Part shown: positions 18,917 through 62,648 of the stretch, one piece after another
Layout: every line of letters starts with the position of its first letter
How positions within the stretch are numbered: the first letter of the stretch is position 1
Source: a bacterium
Lineage (GTDB): Bacteria; Patescibacteriota; Microgenomatia; UBA1406; GWC2-37-13
Assembly: GCA_029573715.1 (NCBI GenBank)
Contig: JAKQDR010000165.1
Span: 88,766-152,765 of the forward strand
DNA length: 64,000 bases
Reading direction: 5' to 3'
Notes under the pieces: model-generated
Told to the model about the DNA's origin: nothing
Databases searched by the model: none
What the model saw: only the letters and a program-made list of their open reading frames with translations
Made by a program: the position numbers and the translations under genes

Positions 18917-19023
18917 AGCTTTGTCTGAAATTGCCGCAAACTCGTGAGATTGTCTCAGGCAAATAAAGCCTTCTTTCTTTGGTGAGTTAAGCATTAACAC
19001 CCCAAACCTCTGCTCTCTTCTCT

Positions 19024-19100
19024 GTGCTCAGTACTCTGTGCTCAGTACTCTGTACTTTGTACTCTGTACTCTGTACTTTGTACTTTGTACTGTGTACTAT
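19024..19100 (+). repeat. Heptanucleotide tandem repeat (GTACTYT-type units)
   Basis: Eleven consecutive 7-nt units, mostly GTACTCT, GTACTTT and GTGCTCA, run up to the exonuclease gene. Read on the minus strand in one frame the repeat spells repeated STKYRVQ/STKYKVQ. A decayed copy of the same unit lies inside the M24 peptidase gene (22065-22099). The last unit GTACTAT also provides the probable -10 (TACTAT, 19095-19100) of the downstream gene. Confidence 0.85.
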
Positions 19101-22336: not shown

Positions 22337-25039
22337 TTATCCCGTCTCTGGAAAATGACATCTTTTCCATTTCTTCCCACTACCACACCAACACGGATCA
22401 TTTCGACCAATTCTTGGTGTTGCTTGCTGCGCCACTTGCGCTGGGGTGCGCAGGCCCGATGGACCCTTTGATTGAGTAGTCTTCGCCTGATCTGCGACCG
22501 CTTTTGTATATGGGTCTACTCCACCTGCCGCCTGAAGAACCATAGGCTGGTCTTTTTGGCTAAGCGTTTGGGTTTGTTTGGCATCATCTTTAAACTCAAC
22601 ATACATCATGCCGCGCACAATCTCTGTGTCAAGCGTGCGCATAAGCGACTCAAACAGTTTGAATGCTTCGTTTTTGTACTCAATAAGCGGGTCCATCTGC
22701 CCATAGCCACGCAAATTTATCCCTTGCCGTAAATCCTCAATGGCAGTGAGATGCTCTGTCCAAATATTATCTACTGCTGAAAGCCCGATGTAGCGAAGCA
22801 CTCGTCGCCATACATCAACTCCCACTTTTTCACGTTTAACCTGTACACCTTCAGAAACGAGTGCATACAGCTCATGTGCAAGTTTCTCTTCATTTTCGGG
22901 AGACGTCTGTATGACGGTGCGTACTTTTTCCTCTGGTAGTCGAAACACGGTGGAAATTTCTTTGCTGAGCTGCTCAACCAAATGCTCGCGCTCATCAGAC
23001 TCACCTATCCCAAAGGTGTTCACCGCATAATCCGATATCATCGTGCGGATTTTCTCATCGATCACATCTTCTATGGGCTCATCCTGCGAAGAGATGCTCT
23101 CAAGCAATTTTCGACGAAACCCATATACAATTTCACGCTGCTTATTGAGGACATCATCGTACTCCACCAAGTGCTTGCGAATGTCAAAATTGTGCCCTTC
23201 CACTTTTTGTTGAGCCGATTCGATTGCCTTTGAGACCATGTTGTGGGAAAGCGGTTGATCTTCGGGGAAGTTGAAAAATGTCATGAGTTTGCCGATTTGA
23301 TCTCCACCGAAAATTCGCATCAAATCATCCTCAAGTGAAACAAAAAATTGTGAAGTGCCGGGATCACCTTGCCGCCCAGAGCGGCCCCGAAGCTGATTGT
23401 CTATACGGCGCGACTCGTGTCGTTCGGTGCCTAAAACGAGCAGCCCACCCAAAGCAATAACGGCATCCTTTTCTTCACCATCGGCCCCACCTAAAATAAT
23501 GTCAACTCCTCTTCCTGCCATGTTGGTCGCGACCGTCACTGCACCGCGCTCGCCGGCTTTTGCAATGATTGATGCTTCTTTTTCGTGGTTTTTCGCGTTA
23601 AGAAGCTCATGGGGTACGCCTCTTTTGCGAAGTAAGTTTGACAAATATTCATTCTTTTCTATAGATGTGGTGCCAACAAGCACCGGCCTTCCCGCCTTAT
23701 GATGCTTGGCGATTTCATCAGCGACAGCATGATATTTTCCCTTCTCGGTTTTATAAATCATGTCGGGCAAATCCTGTCGAAGCATCGGTCGATGCGTCGG
23801 CACTACCACCACCTCTGCCTTATAAATTTTTGCAAACTCTTCTGCCTCCGTTGCGGCAGTGCCGGTCATGCCCGATAATTTTTGGTACATGCGAAAATAG
23901 TTTTGCAGTGATACGGTGGCAAGTGTTTTTGATTCTTGCTTGATACCCACGTTTTCTTTCGCCTCAATCGCCTGATGTAAACCTTCCGAAAAACGCCTGC
24001 CCTGAAGCAATCGACCGGTGAATTCGTCAACAATAACTACTTCACCATCAGCCACGATGTAATCTTTGTCTTTTCTAAATAACGTTTGAGCTTTAAGCGC
24101 CGCTTCAATATGAAAGAGAGTGTCGAAATCACGCTCGTATATGTTGCCCACGCCCAGTGCTTGCTCAATCTTGCTAATGCCCTCATCTGTTAAATTGGCG
24201 GTGCGCAATTTTTCATCAATCACATAATCCGAGCCGGCTTGTAAAATGGTCACGAGTCGAGCATATTCGTAATACTTTGAAATATCACGAGTCACCGGCG
24301 CTGATATGATGTGCGGTGTGCGCGCCTCATCAATCAGTACTGAGTCTGCCTCATCAACGATAGCGAAATGAAATCCGCGTTGCACCATACGAGCAGGGTC
24401 ATCAGCCATGTTGTCACGCAAATAGTCAAACCCGAATTCTGAGTTAATGCCATACGTAATATCCGCCTCATACGCTTGGCGCCTATCGACTTTTCGCAAA
24501 TGAATCAGGCGCGGGTCGGCAACTCCTTGCTCTTCGTGGGTTGGATCAAACAAATAGGATGTATCTGCAATGATGGCGCTTGTCGAAAGGCCCAGCGCAC
24601 TAAAGAGTCTGCCCATCCAGCCGGCATCACGGCGCGCAAGATAATCATTGACGGTCACCAAATGTGCACCCTTGCCCGTCAGCGCATTAAGATACAATGC
24701 AAGTGTGGCGGTGAGCGTCTTGCCTTCACCTGTTTTTTGCTCGGCGATTTTGCCCTCATGCAGCGCTATGCCGGCCAGGACTTGTGTATCAAAATGCCGT
24801 TGTCCAAGCACTCTGCGAGATGCCTCACGCACCAATGCATACGCCTCAGGCAATATATCAGACAGTGGAGTGCCGTCTTGCTGTACACGCTTTTTAAATG
24901 AATCTGTCTTCTCACGCAGCTGATCATCCGTAAGCTTCTGCATGGCGCCCTCATGTGCATTAACCTGATTGACGATCAGTTGTAAACGCTTTACTTCGCG
25001 GACATTGAAATCGAAAAATTGTTTGAAATATGAGAGCAT
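22337..25039 (-). CDS. secA: Preprotein translocase ATPase SecA
   Basis: SecA drives secretory proteins through SecYEG. The 900-residue protein has the N-terminal motor (AEQKTGEGKTLTATLALYLN Walker A region, VDEADSVLIDEARTP Walker B), the preprotein cross-linking domain, second motor domain (TNMAGRGVDIILGG), helical scaffold, and a C-terminal zinc motif NDPCWCGSGKKWKRCH for SecB or ribosome contact. The ATG at 25039 gives the standard MLSYFKQFF-type start; an earlier in-frame start would run through the promoter. The promoter and start codon are embedded in a perfect inverted repeat. Confidence 0.97.
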   Translation of the reverse strand: MLSYFKQFFDFNVREVKRLQLIVNQVNAHEGAMQKLTDDQLREKTDSFKKRVQQDGTPLSDILPEAYALVREASRRVLGQRHFDTQVLAGIALHEGKIAEQKTGEGKTLTATLALYLNALTGKGAHLVTVNDYLARRDAGWMGRLFSALGLSTSAIIADTSYLFDPTHEEQGVADPRLIHLRKVDRRQAYEADITYGINSEFGFDYLRDNMADDPARMVQRGFHFAIVDEADSVLIDEARTPHIISAPVTRDISKYYEYARLVTILQAGSDYVIDEKLRTANLTDEGISKIEQALGVGNIYERDFDTLFHIEAALKAQTLFRKDKDYIVADGEVVIVDEFTGRLLQGRRFSEGLHQAIEAKENVGIKQESKTLATVSLQNYFRMYQKLSGMTGTAATEAEEFAKIYKAEVVVVPTHRPMLRQDLPDMIYKTEKGKYHAVADEIAKHHKAGRPVLVGTTSIEKNEYLSNLLRKRGVPHELLNAKNHEKEASIIAKAGERGAVTVATNMAGRGVDIILGGADGEEKDAVIALGGLLVLGTERHESRRIDNQLRGRSGRQGDPGTSQFFVSLEDDLMRIFGGDQIGKLMTFFNFPEDQPLSHNMVSKAIESAQQKVEGHNFDIRKHLVEYDDVLNKQREIVYGFRRKLLESISSQDEPIEDVIDEKIRTMISDYAVNTFGIGESDEREHLVEQLSKEISTVFRLPEEKVRTVIQTSPENEEKLAHELYALVSEGVQVKREKVGVDVWRRVLRYIGLSAVDNIWTEHLTAIEDLRQGINLRGYGQMDPLIEYKNEAFKLFESLMRTLDTEIVRGMMYVEFKDDAKQTQTLSQKDQPMVLQAAGGVDPYTKAVADQAKTTQSKGPSGLRTPAQVAQQATPRIGRNDPCWCGSGKKWKRCHFPETG

Positions 25040-25117: not shown

Positions 25118-25157
25118 TTGACAAAACGCTCTCTTTCTCTGGGAAAATTCCTATAGG
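25118..25157 (+). promoter_or_regulatory. Promoter of small-protein locus 1
   Basis: TTGACA (25118-25123), a 19-nt pyrimidine-rich spacer, GAAAAT (25143-25148) and an ATAGG start (25153-25157). From the end of the spacer to ATAGG it is almost identical, with equal spacing, to the promoter at 62111-62150. It differs from other promoters here in having a consensus -35 and a real leader. Confidence 0.65.
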
Positions 25158-25162
25158 TTATA

Positions 25163-25203
25163 CTCATCTCCCTGCAGCCTTGCTGCAGAAAGAGGTGAGG
25201 TGG
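25163..25203 (+). promoter_or_regulatory. Structured leader of locus 1 covering the ribosome binding site
   Basis: CTCATCTC (25163-25170) can pair with GAGGTGAG (25192-25199), enclosing a second hairpin CTGCAG (25172-25177)/CTGCAG (25183-25188). The outer arm contains or abuts the Shine-Dalgarno GAGGTGG (25197-25203) of the first ORF, so folding would limit ribosome access. Confidence 0.5.
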
Positions 25204-25210
25204 TGACCAC

Positions 25211-25318
25211 ATGAACATTTCAGGAGCTGCCTTGGGTTTGTGCACACAGGTGCACGACGCTGGACAAGGTGTCGAAGGAGTGAGCAATGGAACCAAAACT
25301 ATGGACCATTTGGGTTAA
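25211..25318 (+). CDS. Putative 35-aa leader peptide (small locus 1, ORF a)
   Basis: A 35-residue ORF starting at ATG 25211, 7 nt after GAGGTGG. The peptide (begins MNISGAALGLCTQ) is Gly-rich and polar, with no membrane segment, and resembles nothing I know. It overlaps the following ORF by 32 nt in another frame, so its translation could control entry to the second start. A regulatory leader peptide is an alternative to a functional product. Evidence is the Shine-Dalgarno, promoter and layout only. Confidence 0.4.
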   Translation: MNISGAALGLCTQVHDAGQGVEGVSNGTKTMDHLG

Positions 25319-25451
25319 TAAGTACCCTCTCAACGCATGGCTCACGGAGCCAAGTATCGACGAAGAAGGGGTAACAACCAATGACATAGCATTCGTGATT
25401 ACGTCTGTGGATCGGGCAAAACGAGAATGTAATGCCCGACTGAAGCAGTAG
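25287..25451 (+). CDS. Small hypothetical protein, 54 aa (small locus 1, ORF b)
   Basis: A 54-residue ORF with a strong Shine-Dalgarno AAGGAG (25275-25280) spaced 6 nt from ATG 25287, rare in this window. The product begins MEPKLWTIWVNKYPLNAW and ends in a basic, helical-looking segment (VDRAKRECNARLKQ). It has no signal peptide or membrane span. It ends 7 nt before a strong terminator hairpin, and the promoter lies ~130 nt upstream, making a compact transcription unit. It has no family I recognise, and the function is unknown. Confidence 0.6.
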   Translation: MEPKLWTIWVNKYPLNAWLTEPSIDEEGVTTNDIAFVITSVDRAKRECNARLKQ

Positions 25452-25458
25452 TACATGT

Positions 25459-25486
25459 GGGCCGTCCAGCCGGCCCTCTTTCCTTT
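25459..25486 (+). terminator. Rho-independent terminator of small locus 1
   Basis: GGGCCG (25459-25464), 6-nt loop, CGGCCC (25471-25476), then TCTTTCCTTT. It ends the locus immediately after ORF b. Confidence 0.75.
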
Positions 25487-25536
25487 ACCCTCGCATCACT
25501 GCTCGTATCCGTCTGAAATAAAACATGAAGGATACT

Positions 25537-25548
25537 GTTCGAGCGAAC
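25537..25548. repeat. Palindromic GTTCGAGCGAAC element
   Basis: A 12-bp inverted repeat about 50 nt after the locus 1 terminator. Its first 11 bases are identical to the start of the repeat at 62494-62513, which follows the terminator of locus 2 at a similar distance. Confidence 0.5.
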
Positions 25549-25571: not shown

Positions 25572-26291
25572 TCACTTACTCAAATACCCCATGGGGATCA
25601 CAAGCAGTCGCGTTGGTGTGACGGCGCTCACCGGCGTACGAAGTGAGCTGACTGCATACACCACATGCACCGTGTCACCTTCTTTGATGCGAGAAAATAT
25701 GCTCGCCTCAAGAGTGCCTGACGCATTTAGAAGCTCTTGTGTGGTAGACCGTGCAACCGATACAGTGAGAATATCTTTATCAAACGTCTCGAGTCGTAGT
25801 GTGAGATTGGTGGCGTCCAGTTCTGTTACGCGGCCAGCCTTAGAATCAAAATGCTCATCAATATAAATTTCATTGGCGGTGAATGACCCATCGGTGCGCA
25901 AACCAGTCACCAACACATACGCACCAAGCACCATGTCTTTTGGTTCTATTTCCTCTTTGGCTGCCCCCACTACACGAAAGTATTTTGTGAGCGCCTCGTC
26001 AAGCTCTACTTTTTGCACCACACCGGCTATAGTGTCAATTTCCAAATAATTCGGCTCAATGACACGCACCTCACCGGCCACCACTTGTTCATCTTTTTTG
26101 CGAAGTTCCGCCACGACACTCGCCAGTTTATCTCGAAGCATTCGCAGGCTATCCGGGTCTTCCAACTCGGTGGCTTGCATTGGTGCAGAAGATGTTGCAG
26201 GGACATCTTGGGCGTGCACCATAACCGTAAATGAGGCAAGTGCTAATACGGTCAAAGACAGTAATAAAAATAGTGCGATGCGTATATTCAT
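25572..26291 (-). CDS. Secreted or membrane-anchored hypothetical protein
   Basis: A 239-residue protein with an N-terminal signal peptide or anchor (about 4-26, ending near VHAQ) and then a mostly beta-rich extracytoplasmic part. A coiled-coil-like stretch lies at about 46-65, followed by two related beta segments around GEVRVIEPNYLEIDT and GRVTELDATNLTLRL. These suggest a duplicated small beta domain like those of DUF5666-type proteins; that assignment is tentative. The start overlaps the stop of the preceding gene by 4 nt (ATGA), so both are translated together. Confidence 0.7.
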   Translation of the reverse strand: MNIRIALFLLLSLTVLALASFTVMVHAQDVPATSSAPMQATELEDPDSLRMLRDKLASVVAELRKKDEQVVAGEVRVIEPNYLEIDTIAGVVQKVELDEALTKYFRVVGAAKEEIEPKDMVLGAYVLVTGLRTDGSFTANEIYIDEHFDSKAGRVTELDATNLTLRLETFDKDILTVSVARSTTQELLNASGTLEASIFSRIKEGDTVHVVYAVSSLRTPVSAVTPTRLLVIPMGYLSK

Positions 26292-62110: not shown

Positions 62111-62150
62111 TTGACAACTCTCTCTCTCTCTCTGGGATAATTACTATAGG
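62111..62150 (+). promoter_or_regulatory. Promoter of small-protein locus 2
   Basis: TTGACA (62111-62116), a 19-nt CT-repeat spacer, GATAAT (62136-62141) and an ATAGG start (62146-62150). Spacing and sequence match the promoter at 25118-25157. It is divergent from the GT4 gene, whose start lies 42 nt to the left. Confidence 0.65.
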
Positions 62151-62493: not shown

Positions 62494-62648
62494 GTTCGAG
62501 CGAAGTCGAGAACTTTCCTTATTATTATGTCTTAATCCTTATGACCTCTATCTTATGTTTTGTTACTGTTCGAGTGAAATCGAGAACCCCCTGTTATCGT
62601 TCGAGTCCGCCTGCCATTTCGTAGCTTTAGCGAAGGATGGTCAAGAAC
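62494..62648. repeat. Three palindromic GTTCGAG...GAAC repeats
   Basis: Copies start at 62494 and 62568 (20 bp each, ending TCGAGAAC, 74 bp apart and flanked by about 22 bp of related sequence), with a third, longer and diverged copy at 62599-62648 holding an inner hairpin (CCATTTCG/CGAAGGATGG). They lie between locus 2 and the glycosyltransferase. They look like short interspersed palindromic elements; no transposase is seen. Confidence 0.6.

Follow-up and report, generated by a model that had tools for sequence, protein, structure and literature searches.

Phase variation has been documented mainly in host-associated pathogens. The fimbrial genes hifA and hifB of Haemophilus influenzae, which van Ham et al. 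are said to have described in 1993 (a paper listed as ref. 120 in PMC11868660), reportedly vary in phase through a dinucleotide repeat in the spacer of their promoter. Phage morons are autonomous promoter-ORF-terminator units that lie between conserved neighbouring genes, and the type I toxin mRNAs hok, tisB and aapA encode small hydrophobic proteins behind a 5′ end that masks the ribosome site. Simple repeats also alter promoter geometry and expression at nadA of Neisseria meningitidis, where the repeat precedes the core promoter and exerts its effect via the NadR repressor (PMC2791445), whereas the CT repeat described here lies inside the core spacer. Within the CPR (Patescibacteria), the repeat region of a hypervariable gene in a gracilibacterium broke the assembly, and repeat slippage was discussed (PMC6851277); however, this repeat is a coding 9-mer in a surface protein, not a promoter repeat, and the words 'promoter' and 'dinucleotide' do not occur in the text of that paper. 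No description of phase variation in Patescibacteria was found in the literature searched, which included few subscription journals and preprints, the one paper that contained both terms concerning archaeal methylation. SSR-controlled promoters are already known; the novelty lies in the phylum and the gene context, for which that literature held no earlier report.

The window, meaning the whole 64,000-nucleotide stretch of DNA that was analysed, contains two small loci, C1 and C2, that resemble hif in having a dinucleotide microsatellite between the -35 and -10 elements, such that one repeat unit corresponds to 2 bp of spacing. Unlike the TA repeats of hif, which two divergently oriented fimbrial genes of a pathogen share, these are CT repeats on one strand, distributed over many independent single-gene units that encode orphan small proteins behind a folded leader, in a CPR bacterium. 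The promoter of C1 (25118..25157, plus strand) comprises the -35 element TTGACA (25118-25123), a 19-nt CT-rich spacer with an imperfect CT tract (25124-25142) and an extended -10, TGG-GAAAAT, that ends at 25148 and is followed by a CTATAGG start region, with a predicted start at A 25155. That of C2 (62111..62150, plus strand) has its -35 at 62111-62116, a 19-nt spacer containing (CT)8 and an extended -10, TGG-GATAAT, ending at 62141, with a predicted start at A 62148. An earlier note, made from the letters of this stretch, had recognised these as a matching pair, and TTGACA-N19-GAWAAT...CTATAGG is found exactly at both positions. Scanning the window for TTGACA-N17..21-GAWAAT-N2..6-ATAGG returned these two matches and none besides, with 0 expected from 100 shuffles, and the strict form of the promoter matches only twice in the whole genome (1.79 Mb). 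The feature that the note missed is that the spacer is a (CT)n repeat. Across 85,000 species, the promoter pattern had 13 matches, 12 of which lack a CT tract, many being intragenic; these were treated as chance, with the possible exception of a Patescibacteria locus, L043.

These tiny self-contained genes form one family, with five units in the genus. A third copy in the window genome (C3, on G000:C262) emerged when the pattern was relaxed to the -10 and start region, and two more (C4, G001:C17; C5, G001:C33) are present in the one other genome of the genus that was covered. The search of the genome and its relatives that the note had proposed therefore yielded C3, C4 and C5, bearing out its view of a single cassette family with the same promoter, leader, small ORF and terminator. 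All five have TTGAYA followed by a spacer rich in CT, as well as an extended -10 (TG), CTATAGG, a leader able to pair over the ribosome-site region, an orphan ORF of 54-68 aa and a terminator. Sequence conservation ends sharply at -35 and +3, and no shared cassette ends were found outside this interval.

The ORFs are of two types: type A, encoding soluble proteins (C1, C5), and type B, encoding proteins with two transmembrane helices (C2, C3, C4). The type A ORF of C1 (25287..25451, plus strand; 54 aa) is preceded by the SD AAGGAGTGA, and the type B ORF of C2 (62226..62402, plus strand) starts with GTG and specifies a 58-aa two-helix membrane protein. Divergence is extensive within both types, with 16-23% identity among the type B proteins, which are 58-68 aa long, and no alignment detectable by BLASTP between the type A proteins of C1 and C5. 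The 54-aa C1 protein has zero homologues in 85,000 genomes, and among 72 family genomes the 58-aa C2 protein matches only itself, with none in the 71 others. No cassette protein matched a Pfam, NCBIfam or PADLOC family or had a confident match in PHROGs, which returned weak matches of unknown function. Single-sequence structure models (pLDDT about 75) support no more than a hairpin of helices in the type B proteins; those of type A were uninformative.

The note had also described a 35-aa ORF overlapping the 54-aa ORF of C1. Both are present, with the shorter at 25211..25318 on the plus strand, but C5 has no counterpart of the 35-aa ORF, which is hence probably not a functional part of the unit, and the idea of an overlapping translational pair was rejected. 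The observation that Shine-Dalgarno sequences are rare elsewhere was upheld: 42 of the 48 long ORFs in the window lack an SD match of at least 5 nt, making the strong SD of C2, with GAAAGGAGGTGA, unusual. A genome-wide search for AGGAGGTGA upstream of start codons found it at other genes too, such as HU, whose promoters have a 17-nt spacer. A strong SD was therefore rejected as a hallmark of the cassettes, since HU and others have one without the cassette promoter.

The positions of the units recall those of morons, being autonomous insertions between conserved neighbours. C1 lies antisense between p239 (25572..26291, minus strand), encoding a 239-aa envelope-type protein, and secA (22337..25039, minus strand, with its likely ATG at 25039), separating genes that adjoin one another in 28 family genomes. 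The gap between them is 532 nt here, compared with -1 to 241 nt, and usually less than 60 nt, in those 28 relatives; hence C1 is an insertion, and the same site exists in relatives without the unit, as is expected of a mobile cassette or moron. Within a 10-kb syntenic block, the type B unit C2 and the type A unit C5 share one junction, next to a glycosyltransferase gene that is orthologous between the genomes; the version from the sister genome additionally contains a prohibitin-like gene. At this, the single site compared, cassette content is not tied to location. C3 and C4 are flanked by the same two glycosyltransferase genes. The note's suggestion of mobility thus has indirect support, from the interruption of p239-secA and from the different types at the C2/C5 site, but neither a recombinase or transposase nor a target duplication was identified, and no integrase or transposase was noticed beside C1 or C2. 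Unlike morons, the cassettes are chromosomal, with no phage genes noticed at their sites and no confident PHROG match. A phage origin was pursued through exact promoter matches in viral contigs, and was set aside when none of the 8 and 2 matches had the cassette architecture. Beside C3 there is a 103-aa ORF resembling a GIY-YIG endonuclease, named by eye (G000:C262:1410-1721; L051 997-1308, minus strand); no such ORF was noticed at the orthologous C4 locus, or beside C1 or C2.

The spacers of C1, C2, C3, C4 and C5 are 19, 19, 23, 19 and 17 nt long, differing by whole CT units, where the value for C4 comes from alignment with the other four units, automatic choice of the -10 giving 16. The tract is (CT)8 in C2, (CT)10 in C3, (CT)7 in C4 and a shorter run in C5; hence these four, as in hif, have a perfect short tandem repeat within the -35/-10 spacer, which is interrupted in C1. 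In the 670 kb sampled, dinucleotide repeats reach their greatest length in the tracts of C2, C3 and C4. From -35 to +3, the promoters of C2 and C3 are identical except for two CT units (19 versus 23 nt), and the site-orthologues C3 and C4 have spacers of 23 versus 19 nt. The change by whole repeat units that characterises hif was therefore found here in comparisons between genomes and between paralogues only.

The association of CT tracts with -35 elements extends well beyond the genus. Across 374 genomes of the class, searched with a promoter sequence model built from the five units and with the pattern TTGACA-N0..4-CTCTCTCTC, the pattern identified 27 distinct sites, versus 3 for a reversed-pattern control. 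Most of these (21 of the 27) were outside long ORFs and had -10-like sequences, being mostly upstream of small unknown ORFs, several of them with SDs; the six inside long ORFs are probably chance matches. In one genome, G384, two near-identical promoters differ by three CT units, with spacers of 13 versus 19 nt. A distant CPR genome from the phylum sample, G412, had 15 matches, some overlapping or duplicated at assembly gaps, and in 155 kb of it all 12 of the (CT)>=5 tracts follow TTGA[CT] within 6 nt. When 37 (CT)n promoters were compared, the distance from the -35 to the best -10 ran from 11 to 23 nt; in the window genome, TTGACA sites that lack CT have a spacer peak at 16-17 nt. Virus contigs had no CT excess, with 5 CT versus 4 GA matches. 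Five of the 10 scaffold gaps in G412 are no more than 200 nt from a CT promoter, a coincidence that could stem from heterogeneity in repeat length or from faulty assembly; sequence flanking some of the gaps is duplicated on contigs C1, C5 and C6 of that genome (L205-L213).

The explanation we tentatively prefer, which we rate at just under an even chance, is that the cassettes are fast-evolving small-protein units under slippage-tunable, and therefore phase-variable, promoters. Each locus is a self-contained transcription unit, with a sigma70-type promoter, a leader, one small orphan ORF and a strong terminator. We infer that slipped-strand mispairing in populations would alter the number of CT units, so that the spacer would lengthen or shorten by 2 bp at a time about its optimum of 17 bp, with the transcriptional effect of toggling the unit between strong, weak and off states. 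The folded leader would play the role of a second, translational gate, and units would occupy intergenic sites, between which they would presumably move by being exchanged or replaced over evolutionary time. This reading is favoured because the spacers of 11-23 nt differ by whole CT units, when ordinary promoters cluster at 16-17 nt. It is weakened, firstly, by the extended -10 (TG) in all five genus copies, as this element can relax the -35 spacing, and secondly, by the several (CT)n promoters elsewhere that precede larger ORFs, or none that is evident. The tracts are also short, at 5-10 units, and that of C1 should slip little, as it is interrupted.

Random on-off switching of genes through repeat slippage is hence a possibility in these poorly known CPR bacteria. 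A broader proposal, in which the phylum as a whole has a contingency-gene system that uses dedicated CT-microsatellite promoters to vary, cell by cell, fast-evolving small-protein cassettes that move among intergenic sites, is rather unlikely and is offered as a conjecture; the putative functions of the proteins in such a system would possibly be directed at hosts or phages. Were the CT promoters to slip, uncultured episymbionts would possess contingency genes, and the repeat would mark small orphan proteins worth diversifying. The cassettes may also account for some assembly breaks, and TTGACA-(CT)n is a possible genome-mining handle for unannotated small proteins.

The strongest argument against slippage is that the non-template strand invariably carries CT as its repeat unit, a constancy for which slippage by itself has no need, and it is this property that gives the leading alternative its force. 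Here the (CT)n would be a fixed element of a class of CPR promoters, affecting spacer conformation or serving as the site of a regulator or unusual sigma factor, and would mark a regulon of small genes specific to the lineage, without being a switch. A model based on protein binding or spacer conformation would demand this specificity of strand and unit, and no enrichment behind TTGA[CT] was seen for the equivalent GA, CA and TA tracts. Many sites have the extra motif CTATAGG in common, either at the start or immediately before TTGACA, and 19 nt is a common spacer length (C1, C2, C4 and several sites in G412). Yet a fixed element would be expected to have a constant length, which is difficult to reconcile with spacers of 11-23 nt and with whole-unit differences between near-identical paralogues and between site-orthologues. 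The CT tract also lacks the dyad typical of activators of 19-bp spacers, and activation of the MerR type was rejected on these grounds. Overall, we consider a fixed element rather unlikely.

It is improbable that these are small genes of the usual lineage-specific kind, driven by strong promoters and carrying a low-complexity CT run by accident. The absence of relatives of the 54-aa protein would be unremarkable, as the same is true of many CPR orphans, and the lack of confident family-library matches for any cassette protein is in keeping with such genes. However, an incidental run would not be expected to place the longest dinucleotide repeats of the sampled genome inside promoters, to follow TTGA[CT] in every instance in G412, or to exceed the control so clearly across the class.

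The leaders and terminators are specific to each type of unit. In the type A leader of C1 (25155..25210, plus strand), the 5′ end of the transcript is predicted to pair with the SD-like AGAGGTGAGGTGGTGACC, enclosing an inner hairpin, CTGCAGC-CTT-GCTGCAG (25172-25188, plus strand), that is conserved in C5; the form common to both 5′ ends is CTGCAGC-YTK-GCTGCAG. In the type B leader of C2 (62148..62225, plus strand), the 5′ end can pair with the SD/start region, which includes the strong SD GGAAAGGAGGTGA. The folding over the ribosome site described in the note was reproduced for both, at -29.2 kcal/mol with a z of -3.9 for C1, and a z of -2.4 for C2. The first leader nucleotides can pair with an SD or SD-like region in all five units, with a joint Fisher p of 0.004 against shuffled 5′ ends; as the individual leaders are weakly better than their shuffles (p 0.01-0.21), the evidence for such a lock on the ribosome site is suggestive.

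The GC-rich intrinsic terminator that had been noted in C1 is present at 25459..25476 on the plus strand, and its loop, GTCCAGC (25464-25470), is complementary to the leader element GCTGGAC (25259..25265, plus strand). Both elements are conserved in C5, where both arms of the terminator stem differ from those of C1 and the loop has been kept. The terminators of type B units are bulged, with a similar apex: that of C2 (62407..62449, plus strand) has a CTGCGCACACGCGCAG apex, and C3 and C4 have the same form. Inspection by eye for a kissing contact like that of type A gave nothing consistent in type B. As a known riboswitch or ncRNA the leaders were also discounted, with no Rfam match at the gathering threshold and one weak, irrelevant match in a permissive scan.

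The resemblance to hok, tisB and aapA lies in the combination of a small hydrophobic protein with a masked ribosome site that is predicted for type B (C2-C4), and not for type A, and in the predicted 5′-3′ contact in type A mRNA. That the cassettes are type I toxin-like multicopy units, their partly two-TM proteins silenced by leaders covering their own ribosome sites and activated by processing, is nevertheless very unlikely: the size and two helices of the type B proteins, the pairing of leader 5′ ends with the ribosome region and the conserved complementarity of the 7-nt leader element to the terminator loop in type A would all fit, but a simple opposite-strand scan detected no antisense RNA promoter in either window unit, no toxin or defence model and no Rfam family matched, and the type A proteins are soluble.

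The note had also linked the two window loci through a trailing element, GTTCGAGCGAAC, and this link was not sustained. The element is one piece of a REP-like repeat, GTTCGAGYGAARTCGAGAAC, that has 14 copies in roughly 650 kb sampled of the window genome, mostly away from cassettes, and GTTCGAGCGAAC is absent after C4 and C5; as part of a dispersed repeat, it was rejected as a cassette end or attachment site. The fragment near C1 (25537..25548, plus strand) is hence outside the cassette, and further copies of GTTCGAGYGAARTCGAGAAC in the window are at 62494-62513 and 62568-62587.

Several other repeats and promoter-like sequences were observed. At L063 (G000:C248:18859-18870), a (CT)6 tract is flanked by TTGCAA and TATAAT and extends over the 5′ part of an ORF of 127 aa, which is preceded by an SD of its own and whose N-terminus is signal-like; this could be a further CT promoter or a frameshift-prone coding repeat. 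In other genomes of the class, the (CT)n promoters at L156, L160, L164 and L175 have no clear ORF and are followed by a short GC-rich inverted-repeat or terminator-like sequence, such that they possibly encode small RNAs. CTATAGG(C), or a close variant, is directly upstream of TTGACA at L156, L160-L164, L166, L175, L176 and L178, in which position these other genera differ from the window genus, where CTATAGG is at the start site. In the virus contig L201 (5514-5545), TTGACA-T(CT)n-GTCAA resembles a CT promoter and is at the same time an inverted repeat; an acidic ORF of 78 aa follows it. Finally, tandem 14-bp repeats of the CTGTGCTCAGTACT type occupy 19008-19091 of the window, upstream of the position (19038) where an ORF starts.
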